From NCBI GenBank assembly GCA_017535315.1, contig JAFXUD010000026.1, forward strand, positions 1 through 38,317: a DNA stretch of 38,317 nucleotides, read 5' to 3'. The notes under the pieces were generated by a model that was not told where the DNA came from, searched no databases, and saw only the letters and a list, made by a program, of their open reading frames with translations. The DNA is from Victivallales bacterium (GTDB lineage: Bacteria > Verrucomicrobiota > Lentisphaeria > Oligosphaerales > Oligosphaeraceae). Shown one piece after another: positions 285-38,303 of the stretch (position 1 is the stretch's first letter; each line of letters begins with the position of its first letter). The position numbers and the translations under genes were made by a program.

Positions 285-321
285 TTGACAATCTAAATAT
301 TTCTATTACATTAGCGCTAAT
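285..321 (+). promoter_or_regulatory. Sigma70-type promoter with overlapping 12-bp palindrome (putative operator)
   Basis: TTGACA at 285-290 is followed after 16 bp by TACATT at 307-312, a plausible -35/-10 pair 56 bp upstream of the pseudopilin start codon. The perfect palindrome ATTAGCGCTAAT at 310-321 overlaps the -10 and the expected transcription start, which is where a repressor would act. The assignment rests on sequence match only. Confidence 0.5.
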
Positions 322-367
322 CATTCATGTCTTTCATCATTCGCACATATCAGAAAGGAGTTTTAGA

Positions 368-1171
368 ATGAAGTACGTGCAATTTACCCTAATTGAACTG
401 CTCGTCGTCATCGCCATCATCGCCATTCTGGCCGCCATGCTTCTCCCTGCACTCAGCAAAGCGCGGGAGAAAGCACGTTCCATCGCCTGCCTGAACAACA
501 TGAAGACCAACATCCTCCAGTACTCCATCTATGCAGACGAATCCGATGACTACCTCATGCCCAACCATGTGGCTACCCCCTGGAAATCCACCTCCGTCAA
601 TTACTGGCTTGAGCAAGCCTACTTCTCGGAATACTTTGCGCCAGTCACACGCAAGAAGAACATCTACAACAACTACCCAAACGCCAATACCTACCACCTG
701 CCACAAATGCTATGTCCCTCCAGCGACAACCATCCTGGCTGGTGGCACGCCTACCCCATCGTCTCCGACTATGTCTATAACCGCTTCCTTGGAAACCTCG
801 CTGGCTCTACCGCTGCCCTCGCGCTCCCTGAAGGTGGCACCCGCATTAAAATGCGAACTGCCATTAAACGAAACCTTTCCCGAACCCTTGTCTTTGCGGA
901 AAGCTGGAAAGAGTATGTCGTCGCAGGCACAAACGGCCACACTTCGGATTCAGGGGGCGACACTTTCAACATAGCTGGCTTCAACAAGCACGTCATCGGC
1001 GACAAGAGCTCCCCCACCAACGTTGGGCCCACCTACGGGGCGCACTCTGGCGCCATGAACGTCGCATATATGGATGGACACGGTGCCCCCATCAAAGCGC
1101 TTGAAACCCACACCGACGGTTATATCAACGTCTGGGATGAAGGCACCATCGTCGAGATGACAAACCACTAA
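368..1171 (+). CDS. Type II secretion/pilin-like prepilin protein (H-x9-DG class, DUF1559-like)
   Basis: This is a 267-residue pseudopilin-like protein, probably displayed at the cell envelope. Residues 7-27 form the prepilin N-terminal segment ([20 protein letters not shown]), a methylation and assembly helix. The C-terminal part holds the H-x9-DG signature (His followed nine residues later by DG in AYMDGHG), which marks the large pseudopilin family of Planctomycetes and Lentisphaerota. AGGAG at 356-360, 7 bp before the ATG, fixes the start. The residue before the Phe of the cleavage motif is Gln, not the usual Gly, so processing by a classical prepilin peptidase is uncertain. The GT39-type glycosyltransferase follows 17 bp downstream and is probably cotranscribed. 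The family is clear, but the role of these proteins (pseudopilus, or surface or substrate binding) is unknown. Confidence 0.9.
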
Positions 1172-5488: not shown

Positions 5489-6373
5489 ATGTTCATAGAC
5501 ATTCATGTCCACACGCGCAGAACTCCTGGCTTCCCTAGAATCGCAGGAGACAAGATGACCTACGCCACACCAGACGAACTGATGAAGGCCTACGACGAGA
5601 TGGGCATTGAGCGCGCCGTCCTCCTGCCAGGCGTCTGCCCCGAATGCAACAGTGTTCCGCAGTGCAACGAGGATTCCCTGGAGCTGGCGAAGACCTACAA
5701 GGGGCGCTTCATCCCCTTCTGCAACATCGACCCGCGCAACATCAACAACTCCTGGAGAGCACCCTTGGACAAGATGATGCTCTACTACAAGGAAAGAGGC
5801 TGCAAGGGCATTGGCGAGGTAACCGCCAACCTCCCCATCCTCGACCCCATGGTGCAGAATCTGTTCCGCTGCGCTGAAATCGCCGAGATGCCTGTGACCG
5901 TGCATCTCTCCCCATACGTCGGCCATGCCTACGGTCTGGTCGATGACAGCGGGCTGCCACAGTTGGAGGAAACCCTGAAGCGCTTCCCGAAGCTGAAGAT
6001 ATTCGGCCACTCGCAGACTTTCTGGGCCGAAATCTCCACCATCCGCTCCGTCGATGACCGTTTCGGCTACCCGAAAGGCCCCGTCACGGAAGGGGCCATA
6101 CCGCGTCTGCTACGGGAGTATCCCAACCTCTACGGTGACCTCTCCGCTGGCAGCGGCTGCAACGCGCTGACACGTGACCCCGAATACGCCGTCAAGTTCC
6201 TGACGGAGTTCCAGGACAAGCTCTTCTTCGGGACGGATATCTGCCAGCCCACCATGCCGACCCTGCGGGGCCTCGCAAACTTCCTAAAGGAACTGCTGGC
6301 CAAGGGCGCCATCTCACAGACCGTTTTCAATAAGATTGCACGCGAAAACGCCATCCGCGTCCTTGCACTGTAA
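5489..6373 (+). CDS. Metal-dependent amidohydrolase, TIM-barrel (amidohydrolase_2 family)
   Basis: The 294-residue cytoplasmic protein belongs to the amidohydrolase-related (PF04909-type) TIM-barrel hydrolases or decarboxylases. Visible metal-site elements are HxH at the start (MFIDIHVH, H6 and H8), a mid-barrel His in FGHSQ, and the barrel-end Asp in FFGTDICQP. An in-frame ATG exists 60 bp further up at 5429, but AAGGAG six bases before 5489 and the usual family start (the HxH right at the N terminus) decide for 5489. The ceramidase-like gene follows after 58 bp, so both may form one transcript with the heptamer repeat between them. Families of this type act on varied ring amides, lactones or aromatic acids, so the substrate is unknown. 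Confidence 0.8.
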   Translation: MFIDIHVHTRRTPGFPRIAGDKMTYATPDELMKAYDEMGIERAVLLPGVCPECNSVPQCNEDSLELAKTYKGRFIPFCNIDPRNINNSWRAPLDKMMLYYKERGCKGIGEVTANLPILDPMVQNLFRCAEIAEMPVTVHLSPYVGHAYGLVDDSGLPQLEETLKRFPKLKIFGHSQTFWAEISTIRSVDDRFGYPKGPVTEGAIPRLLREYPNLYGDLSAGSGCNALTRDPEYAVKFLTEFQDKLFFGTDICQPTMPTLRGLANFLKELLAKGAISQTVFNKIARENAIRVLAL

Positions 6374-6374
6374 C

Positions 6375-6416
6375 TACTTATCACTAATTACTAACCACTA
6401 ATCACCAACCACTAAT
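6375..6416. repeat. Heptamer tandem repeat (6 x 7 bp, CACTAAT type)
   Basis: Six consecutive 7-bp units begin one base after the TAA of the amidohydrolase gene: TACTTAT, CACTAAT, TACTAAC, CACTAAT, CACCAAC, CACTAAT. The ribosome-binding site of the next gene (GAGGAG at 6418-6423) follows directly. The reverse complement of the unit (ATTAGTG) is the same heptamer as in the array at 28214-28255. Confidence 0.75.
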
Positions 6417-10535: not shown

Positions 10536-10640
10536 GGGACGTGGGACATGGGACGTGGGACGGGGGACATGGGACGGGGGACATGGGACGGGGGACAGGG
10601 GACGCGGGACAGGGGACGGGGGACAGGGGACGCGGGACAG
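10536..10640. repeat. Perfect-phase heptamer array, 15 x GGGACNN
   Basis: Fifteen consecutive 7-bp units share GGGAC, followed by two variable bases drawn from GT, AT, GG, AG and GC, with no indel over 105 bp. On the minus strand the array begins 12 bases after the stop codon of the purine nucleoside phosphorylase gene and ends upstream of the rpsD promoter. The unit is not a multiple of three, and the short reading frames across it encode only repeat peptides. It resembles the heptanucleotide STRR sequences known from cyanobacterial intergenic DNA. Confidence 0.95.
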
Positions 10641-15600: not shown

Positions 15601-16179
15601 CTACGCCTTCTGCGCTGCTTCCCGACCAGCCTCGAAGGCCTTCAGGTTCATGGCAACGATTTCCTCGCCCTTGCGCTCGAAATTCTCGCGAATCACATTG
15701 CGCAGCAACTCGGGGTCCATATCCAGGAAGACAGAGACGGCCCCCAGCATGACAGTGTTCATTGCACGGGAGCTTCCCGCCTTCACCGCGATGCCGTCGG
15801 CATCCAGCACAACGCTCTTGGGATATTTCTTGATTTCGGCGATAAGCGCCTCCGTCTCAGGGTAGTCCGCTATGTTTTTGACGGGCGTTGCATTGGCGAT
15901 GATGGCGCCATTGTCGGAAAGCCCCTCGATGTGTCGCATGGCCTCCATGGGCTCCACTGCCAATATGACATCTGCGGAGTGCTCGGCAATGAGGTCGGAG
16001 AAAATCGGTTCGCTGGAGAGGCGCAGATGCGCCAGCACCGCGCCGCCGCGCTGCGCCATGCCATGTACTTCCGACTGCTTGACATTCAGCCCTGCCTTCA
16101 TGGCAGCTTTTCCAATGATGGCCGCAATCGTCAGGATTCCCTGCCCGCCAACACCAGCCAGTATCAAATCATTCTTCAT
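15601..16179 (-). CDS. iorB: Indolepyruvate oxidoreductase subunit beta
   Basis: The 192-residue gamma-domain subunit of the 2-oxoacid oxidoreductase superfamily works with IorA to oxidise aryl pyruvates (from Trp, Phe and Tyr transamination) to aryl-acyl-CoA and reduced ferredoxin in anaerobes, or catalyses the reverse reaction. It starts with the family signature LILAGVGGQGILTIAAIIG and has SEVHGMAQRGGAVLAHLR at about 36-53, which contacts the alpha subunit and CoA. Length is normal. It lies 53 bp downstream of iorA, with a GAAGG ribosome-binding site, and is 7 bp from galK. Confidence 0.93.
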   Translation of the reverse strand: MKNDLILAGVGGQGILTIAAIIGKAAMKAGLNVKQSEVHGMAQRGGAVLAHLRLSSEPIFSDLIAEHSADVILAVEPMEAMRHIEGLSDNGAIIANATPVKNIADYPETEALIAEIKKYPKSVVLDADGIAVKAGSSRAMNTVMLGAVSVFLDMDPELLRNVIRENFERKGEEIVAMNLKAFEAGREAAQKA

Positions 16180-16232
16180 ATCGCTTACCTTCTATGTTTT
16201 TAGTGAATTGTGATTTTCCGACCGAGCACCCT

Positions 16233-17810
16233 CTACTTTTTTCTTCTCAAAGTCTGGATGCACTCACGGCGCGAGATGATGACGGACAATCCCTTGTATT
16301 CGATTTCACCGCAAATGGTCGCAATATTCTCCTCCTTGTTTTTAGGCAGGGGAACGATGATTTTGATATGTTCTTTGGCAACGCCAAGGCCTGCGCAGAT
16401 GTCTTCGATGCGTCCAGCGCCGATGGAGTTCTGTCCGCCTGTCATGCCCGTGGTGCCATTGTCGAGGATAAGCACGGTGATGTCCGCCTTTTCCCAGGCC
16501 GCGTCCAGAATGCCCGTCATGCCAGAATGCGTGAAGGTGGAATCGCCGATGACTGCCACAGCGGGATGCACGCCTGCGTCGGCGGCGCCTTTCGCCATGG
16601 AGATGGAGGCCCCCATATCGACGCAACTGTCAATCGCCTTGTAAGGCGGCAAAGCACCCAGCGTATAGCAGCCGATGTCGCCAAACACCCTTGCAGTGGG
16701 ATATTTTGCCAATGCCCCATTGAGGGCTTCGTAGGAACTGGCGTGAGGGCAGCCGTCGCACAACCTCGGGGGACGCGCCTTCACCAGCTCCGACGCCTTT
16801 GCCGAGCCTTTGATTTCAATGCCAAACGCCTTTGCCACCACGGCGGGTGAAAGTTCCCCTGTGCGGGGCAGCGTGCCATTCAGGCGGCCATTGATTTTGG
16901 CGTTCCCCAACGGGCCGAGGAGCATCTGCTCGATGAAGGGCATACCCTCTTCCAGCACGATGACCTTTGCACAGCCATTGACCAGCTCCGCCAGTTTCTG
17001 CTGCGGCAACGGATATTGGGAAATCTTCAGAATGCTATAGGGGCACTTGCCGCCGAAGGCCTCCATCAGATAGTTGTATGCAATTCCAGAGGCGACGACG
17101 CCGATGCTGGTGTCGTTCCCCTTGATCAGTTTGTTATACGGCGAGGCTTCGGAGGAGGCCTGGAAAGCGGCCTGCTTTCCGCAAAGGCGCACATAGTTCT
17201 TCTGCGCAATCGCGGGCAGCAGCACAAACCGCCTGTCGCCTTCCTTGATGGGCACGCGTTCCGCCAGCTTCTCCGCGCCAACCTCCACGTTGGCACGCGA
17301 GTGGGAGAGACGTGTCGTCAGGCGCATCAAGATTGGAGTCTCCTCCTTCTCGGAGAGCGCAAAGGCGTAGGCCCCCATCTCGTATGCCTCCTGCTGGCTG
17401 GATGGCTCCAGGCAGGGTATCATGGCAAACTGCGCATAGAAACGGCTGTCCTGCTCGTTCTGCGAACTGTGCATGGAGGGGTCGTCCGCTGCGGCAACGA
17501 TAAGCCCGCCGCGCGTCCCTGTGACGGCTGAATTGACAAAGCTGTCTCCCGCGACATTCATTCCAACATGCTTCATGCAGACGATGGCTCGCAACCCTGC
17601 ATAGCTCATGCCCAGAGCCTCCTCCATCGCCACCTTCTCATTCGAAGACCATTCACGGTGTATGCCACGCTCTGCGGCACGGGCCGAACCCTGTATATAC
17701 TCCATTATCTCCGTAGATGGTGTTCCAGGATATGCATAGCACCCTGACAAACCCGCATCCAATACGCCTTGGGCAAACGCCTCATCCCCCAATAACAACT
17801 GCTGGGACAT
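16233..17810 (-). CDS. iorA: Indolepyruvate oxidoreductase subunit alpha, without C-terminal ferredoxin domain
   Basis: The 525-residue TPP-binding subunit has the N-terminal pyrimidine-binding domain with YPGTPSTEIMEYI and KHVGMNVAGDSFVNSAVTG, the Cys motif CDGCPHASSYEAL, and the TPP pyrophosphate motif GDIGCYTLGALPP ... GDSTFTHSGMTG with ILDNGTTGMTGGQ. The long archaeal and proteobacterial IorA form carries two CxxCxxCxxxCP clusters at its end. Here the protein stops after ISRRECIQTLRRKK, so electrons must leave through a separate ferredoxin. No frameshifted remnant is visible in the 53 bp before iorB, so this is a natural short form. AAGGAG before the ATG and an upstream promoter mark it as the first gene of iorA-iorB-galK-ffh. 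Confidence 0.92.
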   Translation of the reverse strand: MSQQLLLGDEAFAQGVLDAGLSGCYAYPGTPSTEIMEYIQGSARAAERGIHREWSSNEKVAMEEALGMSYAGLRAIVCMKHVGMNVAGDSFVNSAVTGTRGGLIVAAADDPSMHSSQNEQDSRFYAQFAMIPCLEPSSQQEAYEMGAYAFALSEKEETPILMRLTTRLSHSRANVEVGAEKLAERVPIKEGDRRFVLLPAIAQKNYVRLCGKQAAFQASSEASPYNKLIKGNDTSIGVVASGIAYNYLMEAFGGKCPYSILKISQYPLPQQKLAELVNGCAKVIVLEEGMPFIEQMLLGPLGNAKINGRLNGTLPRTGELSPAVVAKAFGIEIKGSAKASELVKARPPRLCDGCPHASSYEALNGALAKYPTARVFGDIGCYTLGALPPYKAIDSCVDMGASISMAKGAADAGVHPAVAVIGDSTFTHSGMTGILDAAWEKADITVLILDNGTTGMTGGQNSIGAGRIEDICAGLGVAKEHIKIIVPLPKNKEENIATICGEIEYKGLSVIISRRECIQTLRRKK

Positions 17811-17932: not shown

Positions 17933-18676
17933 CTAGGCCAAAATAGCCTCCAGTAGGGCGCGCGTATCCACAAACACAGAGGTCACCATGTCGATGCAGG
18001 CAGCAGAATGGATTTTGCCAATGACCTCAATGGCAAGCTCACGTACTGAAATAGGCTTAAAATGGAGGAGATTAAGCCGCAGGTTCGGATCATCTGGATG
18101 AACGCTGCAAATATTATTCCGCTTGTCCAGCAGACAGACCGTTCCGTCAATGCGCCCCAAGGTCGTTTTCCATTTGCACAGGAACCCCAATTGCTGGCAA
18201 ACGACCGCGACAAGCAACGGGTCCCCGTTGAGGTTGGTCATCGTATCGCCTAGTAGGTATTTGACAATGAAATTGTCACTCGTCTCGTCAACGACGAAGT
18301 CAAGTTCACGAATCGTGTCGCAGAACTCCTTTGTGCTGCATATTGGCGTAAGGTCGTTATTCAGAAGTTCTGGCAGCATATCGTCAAGCTGCTGAAACGA
18401 AGTACGTGGATCAAGAATCACATTGACGGCGGCCATCGCCTCCCAGTTCGAATACCCTCCGTCTTTGAGTTTCTTAGGGAATTCCTCCATCAGCTCACGG
18501 CGGTTCTTCATGCTGGCAAGCTGATGAATACGTCGGCGCACCATCGGATTGGAGGAATCCTGATGTTCTGCAATGATGCTATCCAAATCAGGTGCATTCA
18601 AAAGCTCGCGAAGCGCGATAGAGGCGTTCGCGTCATCCTCATCCTCCAGCATCGATATGAAAAAATCACGTTCCAT
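17933..18676 (-). CDS. Hypothetical protein, possibly SirB1/transglutaminase-like
   Basis: This 247-residue soluble acidic protein starts with an all-helical half (about 1-130, with short repeats that resemble HEAT-like helices: ELLNAPDLDSIIAEHQD, PMVRRRIHQLASMKN). The segment YLLGDTMTNLNGDPLLVAVVC followed by QQLGF and a strand-rich part resembles the layout of SirB1-type proteins, where G.P..L..l...va..lGl precedes a transglutaminase-like core. The Cys, His and Asp that would make a catalytic triad cannot be assigned, so an inactive relative is likely. It has no obvious ribosome-binding site. It lies between the redoxin/nrdD pair and iorA. A perfect TAGGAG/CTCCTA palindrome overlaps its stop codon. 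Confidence 0.5.
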   Translation of the reverse strand: MERDFFISMLEDEDDANASIALRELLNAPDLDSIIAEHQDSSNPMVRRRIHQLASMKNRRELMEEFPKKLKDGGYSNWEAMAAVNVILDPRTSFQQLDDMLPELLNNDLTPICSTKEFCDTIRELDFVVDETSDNFIVKYLLGDTMTNLNGDPLLVAVVCQQLGFLCKWKTTLGRIDGTVCLLDKRNNICSVHPDDPNLRLNLLHFKPISVRELAIEVIGKIHSAACIDMVTSVFVDTRALLEAILA

Positions 18677-18692
18677 ATTTCAATAAAAAACA

Positions 18693-18816
18693 AAAGGACC
18701 TAAAGAATCAAAACGACGCAAGGGGCACAAAAAAGACAAAGGACAACTGGAAGTTTGCCTAGGCTTATGCCACTTGCGTCGTTTACGTCCTTTAGGTCGC
18801 TTAGGTCCTTTAGGTC
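18693..18816. repeat. Inverted nonamer arrays (TTTAGGTCC type), hairpin-forming
   Basis: The right arm consists of five perfect-phase 9-bp units: ACTTGCGTC, GTTTACGTC, CTTTAGGTC, GCTTAGGTC, CTTTAGGTC (18772-18816). The left arm is a degenerate complementary set (AAAGGACCT, AAAGAATCA, AAACGACGC, AAGGGGCAC; 18693-18728). The arms can pair with a loop of about 43 bp. On the minus strand the array starts 20 bases after the redoxin stop codon. The same nonamers build the composite repeat at 33847-34396. Confidence 0.8.
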
Positions 18817-18836: not shown

Positions 18837-19241
18837 CTACTTGTACTCCATCGCCAGATCCAAGACATGCTGAATCATCTGCGGCGTGATGATGCCCTTC
18901 CCTTCCGCGGAGTAATCCGTCTGAATTCCCAGATAGGTGTAGAGGCGTGAGCGTTTGCAGATTTCATCCTTGCCCTCTGGGTCGGGATTGGGAAGGTAGT
19001 CGGCAGAACCATCGGCGGCGATTTTGGCCACCACCATGGCAGGGACGCGATTCGGATTCAGGCACTGTGCTAGACAGAAATTCAGAAGGCCATCCTCCGT
19101 CTCCAAGTCATTATAGACCTTTACAAAATGGCCAGCCCAAGGCTGTTTGGTGAGTATCTCATCAAGACGCTTGTTCAGCATGGCGCATTTTGCGCAGGTG
19201 TGCTTCCCGAAGACGTGAACGATCAGTGTATCTTTAGACAT
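18837..19241 (-). CDS. Thioredoxin/glutaredoxin-like CxxC protein next to nrdD
   Basis: The 134-residue protein has a redoxin N terminus: a beta strand (LIVHVFGK), then the redox motif CAKC (C16, C19) at the start of a helix (AMLNKRLDEIL). NPNRVPAMVVA follows, where VPA corresponds to the cis-Pro loop of the thioredoxin fold. The C-terminal part (about 85-134) is not recognised. It lies 76 bp downstream of nrdD on the same strand. Some class III ribonucleotide reductases draw electrons from thioredoxin- or glutaredoxin-like proteins instead of formate, so it is a good candidate for the NrdD reductant. That role is inference. A general disulphide-handling function is the alternative. Confidence 0.7.
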   Translation of the reverse strand: MSKDTLIVHVFGKHTCAKCAMLNKRLDEILTKQPWAGHFVKVYNDLETEDGLLNFCLAQCLNPNRVPAMVVAKIAADGSADYLPNPDPEGKDEICKRSRLYTYLGIQTDYSAEGKGIITPQMIQHVLDLAMEYK

Positions 19242-19277
19242 GATTTTTTTGCTTTGTTATAGGGAAAAACAGCTTAT

Positions 19278-19308
19278 ATGACCTCCAGAGCAATCACCTG
19301 GAGGTCAT
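19278..19308 (-). terminator. Perfect 11-bp hairpin between nrdD and the redoxin gene
   Basis: ATGACCTCCAG (19278-19288) and CTGGAGGTCAT (19298-19308) flank a 9-base loop, ten bases after the nrdD stop codon. On the minus strand a short T run (GTTTTTCCC) follows after about nine bases, so it may be a weak terminator or an mRNA-stabilising hairpin that sets the nrdD:redoxin ratio. Confidence 0.6.
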
Positions 19309-19317
19309 GATAGAACA

Positions 19318-22011
19318 CTACTCAGCTGATGAGACCTTGTACATGCCCCTCTGGCGCGCAATGAGCTCGCCATAACGCTTGGACTTGTTCCAGTTCTGAA
19401 TCTTGGAAAAGTAGCCGACAACACGCGTCTCACCCACGACCTCCTTGGACCCGCACTCGGGGCAGACCTCCAGCAGACCACGCGTCTGGAAACCGCAACG
19501 GTTGCAATAAGTGAACTCGGGCGAGATGGTCACCTGCGCAGACTGCGTGCGCAGGAAGACGTTCTTGATGAGTTCGGCAATGGCCAAGGGCTCTGGTTTC
19601 TCCTCGCCAACAAAGGCATGAATGATGGCACCAGACTCGATGATGCTGTGGAACATCGACTGCTTCTCAATGCGCTCGACCAGACAGACGGGAGCATCCG
19701 CCGTGAGGTGCACGGAGTTCGTGTAGTAGGCCACATCCTCGTTGTCGCCCTTGACGATGTCCTTCGCGTCCTCGTGGAAATAGACCAAGTCAACCTTTGC
19801 CAGACGGCGCGCGGCGGATTCTGCGGGGGATTCCTCCAATGTGAACTTGAGGTTGTACTTCTTGGTGTATTCCTTGCAGCGCAGGTACATGTGCGAGACA
19901 ATGCGGATGGCCATCTTCAACGCCTCGTCAGACTCATGCATCTCTTTTCCAATGAGATACTTGACGGCGTCATTCACGCCAATGAGGCCGATGATGTGGG
20001 TCACCTTGTCCAGTTCGACATATGGCCTACCGTCGCACGCCTTCTTGCCAATCTGCCACAGTGGACGTCCTGGGCCAGACATCATCTCCGCAATCTTTGC
20101 GCGCTTCTGGAGGTGCGCCTGAACGGCAAGATCCATGGTAGCGTCAATTTCGGAGAGAAGCCCCTCGTATGTCCTGTTGCCCTTGTGAGCGGCACGATAG
20201 GCAGCCTGCGGAATGTTGATGGTGACGTTCTGGAAGCCGCAGAATCTCATCGATTCAGGATGCTGAAGCATGCGGTTGTCGTCGATGGTGGTACGAAGAC
20301 GGCAGCAGGCAGAGAGGGTCACCTCGTCACGGTCGAAGATGAAATAGGTAGAACCGTTTTTGGAGGAGAGTTCACAAGCTTCGATGAAGATTTTGTACTG
20401 CTCGGGGTCATCGAATGTCTCCTGCGAGACATGGAAGTCGCACTTCGGGAACTCGAAGACGCGTCCGTTGCGGTCACCTTCGCCCCACACTTCCAAAAGT
20501 TTGGAAGTGAAGTGGCGTGCCTCGGGGATAAAGTCGCCGTAGGTCAGGATGCGCGCACCCATGTTGGCGACGGCCTTGTCGATTTCGGGGTCGGTGTGAA
20601 CCCCCAACTTATTGCTGTACAGTTCACGGCGCACAACCATCTTGCCGTTGGGGCCGTCCCAAACCAGATCGGAGAGCTTGTTGTCGTTGGCATCCGTTTC
20701 GGAGCGAAGAATTTCCTTGAGGAAATGGTCCTTGCCATCCTTGTCGCGAAGCATATAGCGTCCGCCAGGTCCCAAAGCAGGAACCTGCTGGAGGTATTTC
20801 GGCACGCCCGTGTGGATGTTGAAGTCCAGGAAGAGGGTCTGTCCACCGCGGGAGAAGGCATTCTGGGAGCCGTTGAAAATAAGCTCCTGGGCGACCTGCT
20901 TGACCTCTTTGTCGTTAAGACCCACCAGATAGGGGGCATAGAAGATGTTGATGTAGGCAATGCCAAGCGCACCCGCGTAGTTCGCCTGCATGGAGGCGAG
21001 GAAGGTGTTGAGATGCCCCGTGAGGACGGAGGCGGAGCGCGCGGGATTGGATTCGGTGTTCAGGTTGCTCAAATCGCGAAGACCATACTTTTTGATGTAT
21101 TCAATGGAGTGCGATGAGCAATAGACACGGTGCGGATAGCCGAGGTCGTGTAGATGGATGGCGCCCGTGTCGTGGGCCTCCTTGACAGCTGGCGAGAAGA
21201 TGGTATCCAGCCCCCACTGCTTCAGGATGAGCTCAGCGATGCTGAGGTTGACCGCCTCGGGATTGTTGGAGACGATGTTGCTGTTCTCCGTGGGCTTCGT
21301 GAACATCAGGTTCTCGATGAACTCACGGGGAATATGGTAGAGCGAAAGGTCCTCCAGCTTGTTGTTGTATCCGCGCTCGACGAGGATGTTGTTGACCATT
21401 TCGCGCAGCAGTGTCGTGGTGACGCGCTTCATGTTGCTGGCGATAATCTGGTTCTCCACCTCCTTGGCGACAGATTCAGCCTCCTCCTCGTTCAAGTCCA
21501 ATTTGTCAATCAGTTTCTTGACGATGCGGTTGCGGTCCCAGGAGAAGAGGTTGTCGCGGGTGGTTGACTGCACCAGAAGCAGGCTCTGGTCGGTGATATC
21601 CGCCTTCTTTTCATCCTTTTTCTCGTTGGGATTGCGGACCTTGATGGCGGAGCGGGCGCGTTCGCGCATCTTGCGATAGCGCTTGTAGGAGGTCAGAATC
21701 TGGTTCTGCCCCTTCTCGGCAAGGACAATCTCCACCAGGTTCTGCACATCCTCCAGCATGGGGATGCGGAGACCATCCTTGTCGGCGGCGGTGTAGTATT
21801 CGCAAAGCGGGTTGTCCAGTTGCGCGACGACCTCATCCGCGATTTCAGCGGCCTTCGCCTCGGAAAGGGGGCTGCCGCCGTTGCGCGCCGCCGCCTCCGC
21901 CGCTTTCATAATGGCACTGCTGATCTTCTCACGACGGAATGGGACCAGAAGGCCGTCGCGTTTCCTGAAAAAAAGGAACGGCCCAGGGTCGCTAGTGGTT
22001 GACATAATCAT
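19318..22011 (-). CDS. nrdD: Anaerobic (class III) ribonucleoside-triphosphate reductase
   Basis: This 897-residue glycyl-radical enzyme reduces ribonucleotides to deoxyribonucleotides without oxygen. It has an N-terminal ATP-cone (about 10-110, FRKRDGLLVPFRREKISSAI) and a second cone-like stretch (about 145-235, SWDRNRIVKKLIDKL). The catalytic barrel includes SACCRLRTTI, followed by the C-terminal zinc site (C836, C839, C850, C853) and the glycyl-radical motif RVVGY with G866. GGAG seven bases upstream supports ATG 22011. The radical-SAM activase NrdG, often adjacent, is not in the window. A CxxC redoxin follows instead. A strong promoter with two NrdR-like boxes lies about 165-210 bp upstream. 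Presence of NrdD implies growth in anoxic conditions. Confidence 0.96.
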   Translation of the reverse strand: MIMSTTSDPGPFLFFRKRDGLLVPFRREKISSAIMKAAEAAARNGGSPLSEAKAAEIADEVVAQLDNPLCEYYTAADKDGLRIPMLEDVQNLVEIVLAEKGQNQILTSYKRYRKMRERARSAIKVRNPNEKKDEKKADITDQSLLLVQSTTRDNLFSWDRNRIVKKLIDKLDLNEEEAESVAKEVENQIIASNMKRVTTTLLREMVNNILVERGYNNKLEDLSLYHIPREFIENLMFTKPTENSNIVSNNPEAVNLSIAELILKQWGLDTIFSPAVKEAHDTGAIHLHDLGYPHRVYCSSHSIEYIKKYGLRDLSNLNTESNPARSASVLTGHLNTFLASMQANYAGALGIAYINIFYAPYLVGLNDKEVKQVAQELIFNGSQNAFSRGGQTLFLDFNIHTGVPKYLQQVPALGPGGRYMLRDKDGKDHFLKEILRSETDANDNKLSDLVWDGPNGKMVVRRELYSNKLGVHTDPEIDKAVANMGARILTYGDFIPEARHFTSKLLEVWGEGDRNGRVFEFPKCDFHVSQETFDDPEQYKIFIEACELSSKNGSTYFIFDRDEVTLSACCRLRTTIDDNRMLQHPESMRFCGFQNVTINIPQAAYRAAHKGNRTYEGLLSEIDATMDLAVQAHLQKRAKIAEMMSGPGRPLWQIGKKACDGRPYVELDKVTHIIGLIGVNDAVKYLIGKEMHESDEALKMAIRIVSHMYLRCKEYTKKYNLKFTLEESPAESAARRLAKVDLVYFHEDAKDIVKGDNEDVAYYTNSVHLTADAPVCLVERIEKQSMFHSIIESGAIIHAFVGEEKPEPLAIAELIKNVFLRTQSAQVTISPEFTYCNRCGFQTRGLLEVCPECGSKEVVGETRVVGYFSKIQNWNKSKRYGELIARQRGMYKVSSAE

Positions 22012-22172: not shown

Positions 22173-22219
22173 GCACTATATATGGTGAAATTGCTTTTGT
22201 CAAACGCTAAATATGATTT
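22173..22219 (-). promoter_or_regulatory. nrdD promoter with tandem NrdR-box-like sites
   Basis: On the minus strand TTGACA (22203-22198) and TATAGT (22180-22175) are separated by exactly 17 bp, a near-consensus promoter giving a leader of about 160 nt. The 16-bp GCACTATATATGGTGA (22173-22188) matches the NrdR box consensus ACACTATATATAGTGT at 13 of 16 positions and covers the -10. ACGCTAAATATGATTT (22204-22219) matches at 11 of 16 and abuts the -35. The two boxes are 31 bp apart, the three-helical-turn spacing known for NrdR pairs. The rest of the 330-bp gene-free stretch (22012-22341) is AT-rich and shows only the GGAG site of the next gene. Confidence 0.75.
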
Positions 22220-28212: not shown

Positions 28213-28213
28213 A

Positions 28214-28255
28214 GTGATTAGGGATTAGGGGTTAGTGATTAGGGATTAGTGATTA
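28214..28255. repeat. Heptamer tandem repeat (6 x 7 bp, GTGATTA type)
   Basis: Six units without indel begin one base after the stop codon of the 1956-residue protein gene: GTGATTA, GGGATTA, GGGGTTA, GTGATTA, GGGATTA, GTGATTA. A degenerate second heptamer stretch (CCTAGCC, ACTAGCC, ACTGCAC) follows at about 28273-28293. The main unit is the reverse complement of the array at 6375-6416. Confidence 0.85.
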
Positions 28256-28307
28256 GTTACCACACCTCTCGCCCTAGCCACTAGCCACTGCACCTACCCG
28301 CTTTTAG

Positions 28308-31170: not shown

Positions 31171-31220
31171 TCTAGACAATCTAGACAATCTAGACAATCT
31201 AGAAATCTAGATAATCTAGA
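31171..31220. repeat. Nonamer tandem repeat (TCTAGACAA type, six TCTAGA palindromes)
   Basis: Three perfect TCTAGACAA units (31171-31197) are followed by TCTAGAAA, TCTAGATAA and TCTAGAATC. Each unit contains the palindrome TCTAGA, so six dyads are spaced by 8-9 bp directly behind the GH2 terminator and upstream of the isomerase promoter. Confidence 0.85.
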
Positions 31221-33517: not shown

Positions 33518-33556
33518 ACGAACGACGGGGGGCTACCGCCCCCCGAACCCCCCGCC
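33518..33556 (-). repeat. GGGGGG-arm palindromic element, copy 2 (inverted)
   Basis: On the minus strand this reads GCGGGGGGTTCGGGGGGC, then GGTAGCCCCCCGTCGTTCGTA, nearly the same as copy 1 at 28308-28347. It forms the hairpin GGGGGGC(TACC)GCCCCCC and starts nine bases after the oxidoreductase stop codon. It is the first part of a 954-bp gene-free stretch (33510-34463) that consists almost wholly of repeats. Confidence 0.8.
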
Positions 33557-33713
33557 CCTGGACAAGGGCAGGTGACGACAGAGGCTGCCGCCCACCGAAC
33601 CCCCCGCCCCTGGACAAGGGCGGGTGACGACAGAGGCTGCCGCCCACCGAACCCCCCGCCCCTGGACAAGGGCAGGTGACGACAGAGGCTGCCGCCCACC
33701 GCCTGGACAAGAG
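33557..33713. repeat. 52-bp tandem repeat, three copies plus a fragment
   Basis: CCTGGACAAGGGC starts at 33557, 33609 and 33661, and CCTGGACAAG again at 33702 (period 52, 52, 41). Each unit contains GCTGCCGCCCACCGAACCCCCC, split as GCTGCCGCCCACC plus GAACCCCCC, a copy of half of the adjacent palindromic element, so the array apparently grew from that element. Copies differ at single positions only. Confidence 0.85.
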
Positions 33714-33846: not shown

Positions 33847-34396
33847 GCTCTGTTCCCCATGAGGGTAGCTTAAACAGCCAAAGACTTCTCCCAATCCTCA
33901 TGGTATGTAAAGGGACCTAAAAGACGAAAGAGACCTAAAGGACGCAAGTGGCACAGAAACAGAGCAGGGGAAAAAGAGGGCTGCCAGGTCATGCGCCACT
34001 TGCGTCGTTTAGGTCGTTTAGGTCCTTTAGGTCCTTTACCAACCCCCATGAGGGTAGGTAAAACGGGCCAAGGTTCCACCAAATCCCCATGATTTGCAAA
34101 AAGGACCTAAAAGACGAAAGAGACCTAAAGGACGCAAGTGGCACAGAAACAGAGCAGGGGAAAAAGAGGGCTGCCAGGTCATACGCCACTTGCGTCCTTT
34201 AGGTCCTTTACCAACCCCCATGAGGGTAGGTAAAACGGGCCAAGGTTCCGCCAAATCCCCATGATTTGCAAAAAGGACGCAAGTGGCACAGAAACAGAGC
34301 GGGGAAAAAAGAGGGCTGCCAGGTCATGCGCCACTTGCGTCGTTTAGGTCCTTTAGATCCTTTAGGTCCTTTACCAACCCGCATGGGGAACAGAGC
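33847..34396. repeat. 550-bp composite repeat bounded by a perfect 14-bp inverted repeat
   Basis: The ends GCTCTGTTCCCCAT (33847-33860) and ATGGGGAACAGAGC (34383-34396) are perfect inverted repeats. Between them lie three direct units starting at CCCCATGAGGG (33855-34043, 34044-34215, 34216-34377; 189, 172 and 162 bp). Each unit is itself an inverted array: 9-bp words such as AAAGGACCT, AAGAGACCT, AAAGGACGC on the left and CTTTAGGTC, CGTTTAGGT on the right, around a conserved centre with GGCTGCCAGGTCAT. Length differences are whole numbers of nonamers. Reading frames here give only repeated low-complexity peptides. Confidence 0.85.
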
Positions 34397-34463: not shown

Positions 34464-37400
34464 ATGCAAAGCACCCTCGAAATCCCCATGCTCAGCCACG
34501 GTGGCATCCAGACCATTTTTGGGGAGCATCCTGCGACTCCCACGCAGCTCGTCTATCTCGATTTTGACGGCGCGGTAACCTCCTACGTCAACGCCGACCT
34601 CGGCGTCTCCATCGACAGTGTGACCGTCGAGGATTCTGGATTCGGCGACGGCGACATCGCCCTCATCATAGCTGCCCTCAACGGCATGTTCGACGACGTT
34701 GTTTTCACCTCCGCGCTACCCGCCGACGGCGAGTTCTCCACCATCTACGTTGGCGTCACCTCCGCCTTCGATGAATACGGCACCTTCCTCGGCCTAGCCG
34801 AGACAATCGACTCTGGCAACCAAATCCGCGACGACAACGCATTCGTTCTTCTCGACTCGTCAGCCTCCGCCGAACTCGTCGTCTCCGTCATCGCGCACGA
34901 GACAGAGCACATTGTCCACGGCATGGAACACGGCGGCGAAAGCCTGGCGAGGTTCGCAGAAACGTATGTTGACGTTAACAGCGGGGAAGTAGTAAGCAAC
35001 ATCAGAATAGAGGGTAAAGTAACTGTAAACAGCGGGGGCACCGCTATAAACACGTCTGTGTGTGCGTTGCAAATATACACTCCGCGTAGATTAATCAGTG
35101 GAAGACTGGACGTTAAAGACGGTGGTGAGGCAGACAAAACGAAAGTGACCGAAGGCGGAGAGGTGTTCGTTTATGGTGGTGGCGTGGCGAACGAAACGAC
35201 CGTAATGAATAGAGGAAGCATGTACATTCATGGAGGCACGGCAAACAATACGACTCTTCGCCCTGGTGTCACTGAGGCTGGTATATTGATGCTCAAGAAC
35301 GGCACGGTAAACGCCACCACTGTGAGCTGCGGAAGCATGGAAGTTAATGGAGGTACTGCGAACGGCACAACCCTGAAATACGGCGGGATATTGATGGTTT
35401 CCGGCGGGACGGTGAACGATACTACCATAGAAAACGGTGGATCATTGAACCTTAACAATGGCACTGTAAACCGCACAACTGTGCTAAACGGCGGAATACT
35501 GAACGTTCTGGGAGGCAGGGTAAACTTCTCAATTGTGAGCAGCGGCGGAACACTGAACATTAACGAGGGCACGGCAAACAACACCACCCTGAGCGGCGGC
35601 AAGATGCGCGTTTCCAGCGGCGGCAAGGTAACAGGCACGCTGACCATCGCAGAGGGGGCGTCCGTCTCCGCATACGATGGAAGCATCATCGACTTTGACA
35701 TCTCGACACGCTCGCCATCCAACTCGCCTCTCGTCAACAACCTGTCCCTGGTTAATGGCAATCCATCATTTTCGCTCACAGTCTCCGACTCACAAGCTGG
35801 CGGCACATATATTCTGGCCGAGGGCGTAGCAACATTCGACAAGACCATCACCGTAATGAACAGCGGCACGAAGATTGGCACACTCACTGTAGATGAAAAA
35901 CATTTAATAGGTAATACGAGGTACTTGCTTACCCTGAATGACGGGAGCCTCACGCTCTCGATGGCTGTCGGAATCACCAAATTCACGGGCGACCTTACCG
36001 ATTATATGTATATCACAGACGGCATGTTGGCGTCTGATGTCAATGTCCACGACGGCGGCTGCCTATTTATCAGTTCTGGCGGCGTGTCTGAGGATACCAC
36101 GCTCAACTACGACGGCGACATGTATGTCTCCAATGGCGGGGAGGCCTACCGCACCACGATTAACTACCGAGGCAGGCTGTATGTCTCCTCAGGCGGCATG
36201 GCAAAAAACACCACGCTCTCGGAGAGCGGGTTCATTTATGTCGAGTCAGACGGCATGGCGAACAGCGTCACGGTTGAAGGCGGCAAGCTGATTGTTTCCG
36301 ATTGCGGCACGGTGAACGGTTTCACGGTCAGCAGCGGTGGCACTATTTATCTCTCATCTGGCGGAAAAATGACGGGACGGATGTCTTTTGAGGATGGCGC
36401 AAAGGTTAACGCAAACGACGGCTTTATTCTCGACTTCGACATATCGGTAGCCACCGCCGATTCCCCTCTCGTGAGCAATCTATCCGTCGTCTGGAACAAG
36501 TCTCCGAATATTACGATGACAGTTTCCAGCACGCAGGCGGGCGGTTTGTATTTCCTTGCCGACGGCGCGGCGGGATTCAACAAGAGCATCACCGTCGTGA
36601 ACCCTCTCGGCGATAAACTCGCCACGCTCACAGTCGGCGGCGGCACTGCCCAAATCAACGGCAAGGAGTCCATGCTGATTTTGGATGACGATGAACTCAA
36701 ACTTGCCATTGGCGTCTTCACAGGAACCCTGAACAATGAGACAAAGGACATCAAAGAGATGTACGCGAGCGGAGTCAACGTCAACGCTGGCGGCATCCTG
36801 AACGTCCTTGACGGCGGCACGGCGGAGAAGACATCGGTCAACAGCATGGGCCGCGTTTTTGTCTACTCTGGCGGCGTGGCGGAGGACACCGCTGTCAACA
36901 GAGGCGGAACTATGTGCATCTCCAACGGCACTTTGAAGGGCTCTAATGATATCGCACCATACGCGACTCTCAAGGCGGCAGGCCTCATGACCATCGCAGA
37001 CGGCGCGGTTGTCAACGCCTACAACGGGAGCGTCATCGACTTCGACATCACGGCGCTCTCGCCAGATGACACGCCCATCGTCAACGACCTTTCCCGAATC
37101 AACGGTGTCCCCTCCTACACCGTCACCGTCATGGCGGAGCAGGAGAAGGGCGATTACATCCTTGCTGACGACGCGGGAAATTTCAACGGCACCCTGACCG
37201 TCAAATGCGCGAACGAGGCGGATCTCACCCTCACCGTAGGCGACGCATACGTCGCGGGCGGCGAGCAGGCATACTCGCTCGTCGTCACAGGCGGGCAGCT
37301 GGTCTTCTCCGTCATGGAGCTCGACACGACACCGCCCGACGCGCCCGAGCTCACGCTGTCGGGGGACTCCGCCTCCAACAAACTCGTTGTCACCGCCGCC

Positions 37401-38303
37401 TGGGACGCGGAGGACGCCGTCTGCCGCTACGCGCTGGACGGCGCGGAGGCCCTGCAGGATTATGCAGGGCCGCTGCGGCTCCCCTTCGGCGATGACGCCA
37501 GCGTCCGTTTCCAGACCGAAGACGCGGCAGGGAACACGGCCGACCGCACGCTCGACCTGATGTTCGGGCGCGTCACGGGCGTGTGGCGCGACGGGTACTT
37601 CGCCCGCAACTGCTCCGTCGAGGCAATCGACCTAGAGCCGCTTGAGGGCCTCAACCTCATCAGCGACATCTTCGCGGGCTCCGACGACTCCACCATCCTG
37701 GTTCTAACCGACGACGGCAAGGGAGACGCCCTCTTCCTGGACGACATCTACTCCGCCGCCCCAGATGTTTCCTCCAAGGCGCGCATCAGCAAGGTCAACG
37801 AGATCATGGCGGGCGCGGGCGATGACGTCATTGACCTGACCAGCGTGCGGTTCGACTGCACCGACGGGGGCGTCGCCGTGCATGGCGGGCTGGGCAATGA
37901 CGTGATCTGGGCGAACTGCGGCGTCAACAGGCTCTTCGGAGACGCGGGCAATGACCGCATCGTCGGCGGCAGCGGCGACGATGTGATTGTCGGGGGCGCG
38001 GGCGATGACACTCTGCACGGTGGCGGCGGCGACGACATCTTCTGCTTCGGCAGCGACTGGGGGAGGGACGCCGTCGCGCAGTCGGAGGGCAGCGTCACGC
38101 TCTGGTTCAAGGAAGGCGACGAGTCGAAGTGGGACAGCGAAAAGCTGACCTACACGGACGGCACGAACTCCGTGGCGGTGACAGGCATCGATAAGGTGAT
38201 GCTCCTCTTCGGAGATTATGATGCCCTGTTCGCCACTGGCGCCTTCGACGCCTTCACCAGCGACAGGATCCTCGATGGCAGGAACTGGGCCATCCTTAAA
38301 TAA
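34464..38303 (+). CDS. Surface protein: zincin-like head, AIDA-type repeats, RTX calcium-binding tail
   Basis: The 1279-residue protein has no classical signal peptide. Residues 29-157 form a head with VYLDFDGA (30-37) and a zinc-protease-like motif HETEHIVHGMEH (H145, E146, H149, H156). Residues about 165-950 hold three blocks of AIDA-I-type repeats of 17-20 residues (GG...V..GG.ANNTTL). Each block ends in a capping segment with DGSIIDFDI (near 407, 652, 854) and LTV..Y.L.L strands. TTPPDAPELTLSGD (about 954) opens an immunoglobulin-like domain. Residues about 1114-1185 carry RTX nonapeptides (GGLGNDVIW, GDAGNDRIVGG, GGAGDDTLHGG). RTX repeats and lack of a signal peptide suggest type I secretion, not an autotransporter: there is no C-terminal beta-barrel. 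AGGAG seven bases before the ATG fixes the start. Confidence 0.82.
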   Translation: MQSTLEIPMLSHGGIQTIFGEHPATPTQLVYLDFDGAVTSYVNADLGVSIDSVTVEDSGFGDGDIALIIAALNGMFDDVVFTSALPADGEFSTIYVGVTSAFDEYGTFLGLAETIDSGNQIRDDNAFVLLDSSASAELVVSVIAHETEHIVHGMEHGGESLARFAETYVDVNSGEVVSNIRIEGKVTVNSGGTAINTSVCALQIYTPRRLISGRLDVKDGGEADKTKVTEGGEVFVYGGGVANETTVMNRGSMYIHGGTANNTTLRPGVTEAGILMLKNGTVNATTVSCGSMEVNGGTANGTTLKYGGILMVSGGTVNDTTIENGGSLNLNNGTVNRTTVLNGGILNVLGGRVNFSIVSSGGTLNINEGTANNTTLSGGKMRVSSGGKVTGTLTIAEGASVSAYDGSIIDFDISTRSPSNSPLVNNLSLVNGNPSFSLTVSDSQAGGTYILAEGVATFDKTITVMNSGTKIGTLTVDEKHLIGNTRYLLTLNDGSLTLSMAVGITKFTGDLTDYMYITDGMLASDVNVHDGGCLFISSGGVSEDTTLNYDGDMYVSNGGEAYRTTINYRGRLYVSSGGMAKNTTLSESGFIYVESDGMANSVTVEGGKLIVSDCGTVNGFTVSSGGTIYLSSGGKMTGRMSFEDGAKVNANDGFILDFDISVATADSPLVSNLSVVWNKSPNITMTVSSTQAGGLYFLADGAAGFNKSITVVNPLGDKLATLTVGGGTAQINGKESMLILDDDELKLAIGVFTGTLNNETKDIKEMYASGVNVNAGGILNVLDGGTAEKTSVNSMGRVFVYSGGVAEDTAVNRGGTMCISNGTLKGSNDIAPYATLKAAGLMTIADGAVVNAYNGSVIDFDITALSPDDTPIVNDLSRINGVPSYTVTVMAEQEKGDYILADDAGNFNGTLTVKCANEADLTLTVGDAYVAGGEQAYSLVVTGGQLVFSVMELDTTPPDAPELTLSGDSASNKLVVTAAWDAEDAVCRYALDGAEALQDYAGPLRLPFGDDASVRFQTEDAAGNTADRTLDLMFGRVTGVWRDGYFARNCSVEAIDLEPLEGLNLISDIFAGSDDSTILVLTDDGKGDALFLDDIYSAAPDVSSKARISKVNEIMAGAGDDVIDLTSVRFDCTDGGVAVHGGLGNDVIWANCGVNRLFGDAGNDRIVGGSGDDVIVGGAGDDTLHGGGGDDIFCFGSDWGRDAVAQSEGSVTLWFKEGDESKWDSEKLTYTDGTNSVAVTGIDKVMLLFGDYDALFATGAFDAFTSDRILDGRNWAILK

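Follow-up and report, generated by a model that had tools for sequence, protein, structure and literature searches.

Which reductant serves a class III (anaerobic) ribonucleotide reductase (RNR), and can the answer be read from the gene that follows it? The question is raised by a locus of a Victivallales bacterium, lying in what we call the window, namely the whole stretch of 38,317 nucleotides analyzed here (positions 1 to 38,317 of contig JAFXUD010000026.1, assembly GCA_017535315.1). In it, nrdD (19318-22011, minus strand) is followed on the same strand, after 76 bp, by a redoxin gene (18837-19241, minus strand), so that the original prediction of an nrdD adjoined by a 134-residue redoxin with a CAKC motif and a VPA tripeptide stands as made. 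The 897-residue product of nrdD combines an ATP-cone (66.3 bits) with an NRDD domain (Pfam PF13597, 404.3 bits), scores 365 bits on TIGR02487 (cut-off 326) and, in having the NRDD domain together with a glycyl-radical C-terminus (RVVGY), presents the features of a class III RNR. The 134-residue redoxin is predicted to adopt the thioredoxin fold and matches no Pfam or NCBIfam family over its cut-off. Based on the evidence laid out below, we propose that this class III RNR works without formate and that the redoxin is quite likely its dedicated dithiol electron donor.

Recurrence of the pair and the place of nrdG

The genes, their order, their conservation and their key residues were read from sequence, using a set of 59 related genomes, the source genome included, and a phylum sample of 387 genomes; as these genomes are related, the counts do not represent independent events. 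Within the set of 59, the redoxin is found in 39 genomes and an NRDD protein in 48, of which 42 have an NrdD of the window clade and six an NrdD of another type; the redoxin and the NrdD clade occur together in 38. The clade genomes with no redoxin match (G001, G020, G023 and G025) have an nrdD that reaches or nears a contig end, and no redoxin was found in any of the six genomes with the other type. Across the phylum sample, 61 genomes have a match to the redoxin profile and 62 have the NrdD clade, with both in 60, G349 being counted in the clade by a 110-residue N-terminal fragment alone (118 bits). Some NRDD protein occurs in 235 of the 387 genomes, and 176 of these 235 are without the redoxin. 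The NrdD profile splits off the clade cleanly: its full-length members score at least 1558 bits against 127 bits for the best NrdD of the other type.

In 58 of the 61 redoxin genomes, nrdD has the redoxin downstream of it and on its own strand, with hit-to-hit gaps of 18-842 bp (median 61.5 bp; 56 of 58 within 229 bp). The pairing fails in G035, where the redoxin sits at a contig start, in G007 and G349, where the two genes are apart, and in G227 and G242, which have a partial nrdD and no redoxin. This adjacency is more than chance. It further extends to two IMG/VR contigs retrieved by the redoxin profile (L134, 69.6 kb, 34% identity; L135, 159 kb, 27% identity), in both of which the redoxin is directly downstream of an nrdD of the window type. 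Because many related bacteria, and two virus-like contigs as well, have the same pairing, the redoxin is probably the private electron supply of NrdD. A contig scan with the redoxin as query also returned three Planctomycetota loci, which were treated as false: the matches, of 14-15 residues, fall inside a long open reading frame (ORF) that by eye looks like a sugar transferase.

Scans with NrdD recovered 11 contigs from viral collections with a related NrdD, or nine once two near-identical pairs are merged. One of these (L136) has an NrdD 65% identical to that of the window; it groups with a bacterial sequence, its neighboring gene looks host-like by eye, and the contig breaks off within nrdD. 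As for the other eight, two have the window-type redoxin, two a glutaredoxin-like gene and four no redoxin in view, the last judged by eye. The glutaredoxin-like genes (L137/L186 and L191) encode proteins of 81-90 residues over the Pfam Glutaredoxin cut-off; these loci resemble the window in joining a related NrdD (47% for L137, 51% for L191) to a redoxin gene close by, and differ in that the small protein belongs to another family and is encoded upstream rather than downstream of nrdD. Against named phages, the redoxin gave no match at E 0.01 and NrdD matched 141 records, none spanning 80% of the query. L135 additionally encodes a 247-residue ORF rich in Cys motifs (297-1040, plus strand), two genes before its redoxin, which has no match to NrdG.

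The arrangement of the operon was read at the redoxin loci found in the set of 59 and, beyond the order to which the source belongs, in 20 of 38 further genomes with the redoxin. The notion that the redoxin stands in for nrdG survives in part: nrdG is indeed not next in the window, but it directly follows the redoxin as the third gene in 44 of the 51 readable linked loci of relatives, or 44 of 52 with the window. The relatives in which it is not next are G002, G032, G037, G039, G042, G043 and G282, the last having nrdG about 1.3 kb further on. In the window, the place held by nrdG in most relatives read is occupied by a 247-residue ORF with weak HEAT similarity (17933-18676, minus strand), to which G002, a genome of the same genus, has a 28.6% identical counterpart at that position, and the sole NrdG2 match over the cut-off in the source genome is on another contig (G000:C49:157333-157863). 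Since the window and G002 share the HEAT-like gene at this place and NrdG2 lies on contig C49, nrdG was probably lost from the operon in this genus, with the clade mostly keeping the order nrdD-redoxin-nrdG.

That order could also mean that the redoxin serves NrdG or the radical step, by keeping the cluster cysteines reduced or helping re-activation, and not the turnover of NrdD. The immediate succession of redoxin and nrdG in most readable loci is what one would then expect, as is the situation in G007 and G349, where nrdD and the redoxin are apart and the redoxin is instead beside nrdG. Nevertheless, we deem this unlikely, given that the window and seven other loci keep the redoxin with nrdD where nrdG is not next, that L134 and L135 couple nrdD to the redoxin with no NrdG match in stretches of 6.7 and 10.3 kb, and that the presence of the redoxin tracks the active-site type of NrdD.

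The active-site type of NrdD and the question of formate

The active site was compared in an alignment of 57 clade NrdDs longer than 600 residues, that of the window included, and nine NrdDs of the other type, these being read from 11 long matches in six genomes. For three of the 57, those from G007, G023 and G025, the stretch read shows no redoxin, and that of G011 is split over two contigs, one of which holds its tail and the redoxin. Y297, C298, A568-C569-C570-R571, C591 and E726 are present in all 57. Cys298 of the YC motif (21118-21120; all codon coordinates are on the minus strand) is a conserved beta-A cysteine, which aligns with the Cys of the YC, NC or TC motif in the nine other NrdDs. 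The finger-loop ACCR (A568-R571; 20299-20310) has a double Cys and no Met in 57 of 57, whereas the other-type NrdDs (from G012, G049, G050, G053, G055 and G058) have MGCR or MCCR. Glu726 (in LEESPAE; 19834-19836), a putative proton donor, occupies the position of Thermotoga maritima Glu495 by alignment to 4coi/4u3e. Gly866 of RVVGY (19414-19416), the predicted glycyl-radical residue, is a Gly in 55 of the 57 and a gap in two truncated sequences. Cys591 (20239-20241) is invariant in the bacterial clade, and its position is not a Cys in the viral NrdDs L137 and L188. Inteins are inserted just before C570 in L135 and, by reading, in L192/L193; that of L134 immediately precedes the position of C591. 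These insertion sites fit C570 and C591 as active-site positions.

According to excerpts of PMC4493059, NrdD2 is defined by a third Cys and a Glu. The finger loop of all 57 clade NrdDs has the third Cys, and all have a Glu at T. maritima position 495; hence, by the sequence features compared, the window NrdD belongs to the NrdD2 type. Excerpts of PMC9669993 link MGCR to formate use via its Met, which is important for formate-dependent reduction, assign the Glu495 column to the proton donor and regard enzymes with Glu but without Met as likely thioredoxin-only. In all 57, A568 and not Met opens the motif, as in that thioredoxin-only subgroup, and the window NrdD has ACCR where the formate-type NrdD1 has the single Cys and Met of MGCR. 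The subgroup that the original prediction left to be assigned is accordingly one from which the formate set is absent. For NrdDh one would expect SCCR (MCCR in NrdDh4) and a hydrophobic finger-loop tip; the motif seen here is ACCR, and the NrdD structure model (mean predicted local distance difference test score, pLDDT, 59), too weak to place the tip residue, was discarded. The four other-type NrdDs with MCCR carry the active-site Glu too and might thus use either reductant.

A tree was built from 34 sequences, comprising 19 of the 57 clade NrdDs, all nine of the other type and six viral ones, with the root for drawing only. In it, the redoxin-linked NrdDs form a single clade with support 97/99. 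The viral NrdDs L137, L189 and L188 branch just outside it, followed by the MCCR NrdDs; the viral rows are long-branched and their exact placement is unsure.

Might the NrdD nonetheless be driven by formate in the cell, with the redoxin only protecting or repairing the oxidized enzyme? Pyruvate formate-lyase (PFL; TIGR01255) is over the cut-off in nine of the 42 genomes with window-type NrdD and partial in G017 and G039, so that some members may have formate at their disposal; among genomes with other-type NrdD it is over the cut-off in five of six. The idea of a clade-wide lack of formate was hence dropped, the absence of PFL being a tendency rather than a rule. Still, the source genome has no PFL over the cut-off (best 80 bits against 994; formate dehydrogenases and other sources of formate were not searched), and the Met to which PMC9669993, in the portion drawn on here, ascribes importance for formate-dependent reduction is missing in all 57 clade NrdDs aligned. 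We therefore hold a formate-driven NrdD to be most improbable, and the redoxin as its electron donor to be the better account. Both outcomes named beforehand as telling against a dedicated donor, a full formate-type active site and a redoxin not conserved next to nrdD in relatives, came out the opposite way, which supports the donor reading of the original prediction, with the donor function itself being what these observations point to.

The redoxin family and a proposed dithiol relay

Alignment A1 of the redoxins comprises 36 of 41 sequences, omitting three fragments (two from G030, one from G035), a divergent second copy from G007 and that of G028. In all 36 rows, C16, K18 and C19 of the CAKC motif (19185-19196) are invariant, as are the cis-Pro-like P67 (19041-19043; VPA, residues 66-68) and a family signature downstream, made up of G105 and Q107, T108, D109 and Y110 of QTDY (18912-18923). 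In 15 of 15 rows of a wider set (A3), this loop retains its G, T and Y, and the Q is lost in viral and prophage-like rows. The second G007 copy (L085, G007:C169, 3175-3567) is 32-34% identical; the short contig that carries it also has an ORF that by eye resembles an integrase, and no nrdD is in view.

Overall, the family bears a weak likeness to thioredoxin and glutaredoxin models. The best Pfam family for the window redoxin is Thioredoxin_4 (E 0.033, below its cut-off); Glutaredoxin (PF00462) does not match it at E<=1 and matches four of the 36 members (best E 0.056), and Thioredoxin (PF00085) is absent both from the families that the window redoxin matches at E<=1 and from those listed for the 36. 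A structure model built from the window redoxin together with two relatives of viral origin (pLDDT 79.6; predicted template-modeling score, pTM, 0.79) has strands at 6-12, 39-45, 68-74, 80-82 and 105-107 and helices at 17-30, 51-59, 93-97 and 120-132. It displays the beta-alpha-beta-alpha-beta-beta-alpha arrangement with CxxC and cis-Pro of the thioredoxin fold, and VIA-align superposes it on solved thioredoxins with Z 10.0-11.2 over about 90 residues; the VIA-align and Foldseek lists consist mostly of ordinary thioredoxins and indicate fold, not function. Because thioredoxins align from the first strand through the last helix, the about 50 extra C-terminal residues once ascribed to this protein are not an appendix: in the model, they consist chiefly of the strand and helix that close the fold, together with an insertion at about 75-102, its limits being a reading of the secondary structure.

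With such a fold, the protein might be a general cellular thioredoxin serving many targets, which came to lie in the RNR operon by happenstance. The usual active-site motif of thioredoxins is CGPC; the redoxin has CAKC, bears the QTDY signature with no Pfam or NCBIfam model over the cut-off, and closely co-occurs with one NrdD clade. Hence, even though the NrdD of Neisseria bacilliformis accepts Escherichia coli thioredoxin, as cited in excerpts of PMC4493059, and with no search made for other thioredoxins in the genome, we find a generalist quite improbable here and favor a donor dedicated to NrdD.

Briefly, we advance the following plausible mechanism, in which the electron flow, the disulfide pair and the docking face are what we infer from the above features. 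NrdG would place the glycyl radical on Gly866 of NrdD, and the finger-loop Cys C570, identified by alignment with the T4 radical cysteine, would start nucleotide reduction. C298 and C569 would supply the two electrons, turning into a disulfide, with Glu726 taking the acid-base role played by formate in other enzymes. Cys16 of the redoxin might then attack the C298-C569 disulfide, to be resolved by Cys19, and a partner protein would re-reduce the oxidized redoxin. The face docking on NrdD is likely to comprise CAKC, the P67 loop and the G105-QTDY loop; going by thioredoxin topology, the last would lie near the CxxC groove, where it may help recognize NrdD.

The cell in which this relay would operate can be sketched from the source genome, which is 95.6% complete. 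Corynebacterium and Synechococcus have class I/II RNRs; a search with PF02867, a domain of such enzymes, gives a signal in 11 of 14 control genomes but is silent in these two, and hence can miss some. As this search found no match in the source genome, NrdD is probably its only RNR, with about 4% of the genome possibly missing. Thioredoxin reductase is likewise absent over the cut-off (best 74 bits against 343); three loci resembling it look by eye like other flavoproteins and were set aside. A candidate electron source for the redoxin is a 65-residue protein similar to ferredoxin-thioredoxin reductase (L185, G000:C29:28577-28783), with an FeThRed_B match of 28.4 bits over a cut-off of 22.

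Several observations weigh against the redoxin being a dedicated donor in this setting. Beyond the separation of the two genes in G007 and G349, the PFL carriers within the clade and the silent PF02867 controls noted above: (i) the FeThRed_B match is restricted to the source genome, one of 59, and on such evidence its protein cannot be the general partner of the redoxin; (ii) the four of eight viral NrdDs with no redoxin in view may be served by a host or general redoxin; (iii) a third Cys of the redoxin (C60) is missing in L134, L085 and G282.

If the donor reading holds, its implications could be broader. A previously undescribed redoxin family might have NrdD as its sole client in cells lacking the classical NADPH thioredoxin reductase, with all de novo DNA precursors depending on a private, possibly ferredoxin-fed, dithiol relay that some phages carry in their own nrdD cassette; we offer this wider scenario tentatively, as a possibility with the odds against it. 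The locus and its relatives would also furnish a clean case, at genome scale, where the operon reveals the reductant of a class III RNR and this reductant can be matched to the active-site type, thereby bearing on how NrdDs divide between formate and protein reductants. The window also offers a defined enzyme-redoxin pair for testing, and with it a redoxin family for which the QTDY signature could serve as a mark.

Genomic surroundings and known systems

Upstream of nrdD (22173-22219, minus strand) is a putative pair of NrdR boxes (22204-22219 and 22173-22188, 31 bp apart), recognized by its resemblance to the NrdR consensus and spacing. Over 55 upstream regions, the window included, the best NrdR-like pair has a mean score of 23.4, compared with 17.5 for shuffled sequences (100 per region, preserving only base content), with p <= 0.01 in 47 of the 55. 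On its own, the 12-base core would turn up in the window 0.87 times by chance; hence, it is the pairing of the sites, and its recurrence, that count as evidence. Downstream of the nrdD-redoxin pair are genes similar to the alpha and beta subunits of indolepyruvate ferredoxin oxidoreductase (15601-17810, minus strand). Elsewhere in the window, the 9-mer GTCCTTTAG forms short arrays at 18778-18816, 34004-34038 and 34339-34373; further short arrays are at 6371-6416, 10536-10638, 28213-28257 and 31171-31220, and a 52-bp unit is arrayed at 33531-33701. These arrays mostly sit between the long ORFs. A 1279-residue ORF (34464-38303, plus strand) with an AIDA stalk and RTX calcium-binding repeats possibly encodes a surface or secreted protein.

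Titles and abstract openings in the literature yielded no nrdD-linked redoxin other than that of the Methanosarcina nrdH operon (PMC9694453), and an earlier publication of the pair is possible. Three systems nevertheless invite comparison. The thioredoxin-reduced NrdD2 of N. bacilliformis, as described in excerpts of PMC9669993 and PMC4493059, is alike in its double-Cys finger loop without Met, its active-site Glu and its protein reductant; it differs in having SCCR in place of ACCR, and the reductant of the window is a dedicated operon gene from a distinct redoxin family. The T. maritima NrdD (NrdDh) shares the Tyr-Cys, the double Cys and the Glu495 equivalent, and depends on a protein factor supplied by cell extract (PMC4493059, in part); it has SCCR, unlike the 897-residue ACCR enzyme with an ATP-cone described here, and the same portion of PMC4493059 makes no mention of a redoxin operon for it. 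In Methanosarcina, NrdD3 works with NrdH, which PMC9176816 lists for NrdD3 in the part drawn on here, and the M. mazei operon nrdH-nrdD-nrdG likewise encodes a redoxin with nrdD and nrdG (excerpts of PMC9694453). That likeness is one of gene organization: NrdD3 has QCCR/A without the Glu (PMC9669993, in part), which is present here, and the Methanosarcina-type NrdH system has a ferredoxin disulfide reductase as its electron source, for which the source genome, alone among the 59, offers the weak FeThRed_B match. By analogy, the window system may thus be pictured as working like the N. bacilliformis enzyme while being organized like the nrdH-nrdD-nrdG operon of Methanosarcina.

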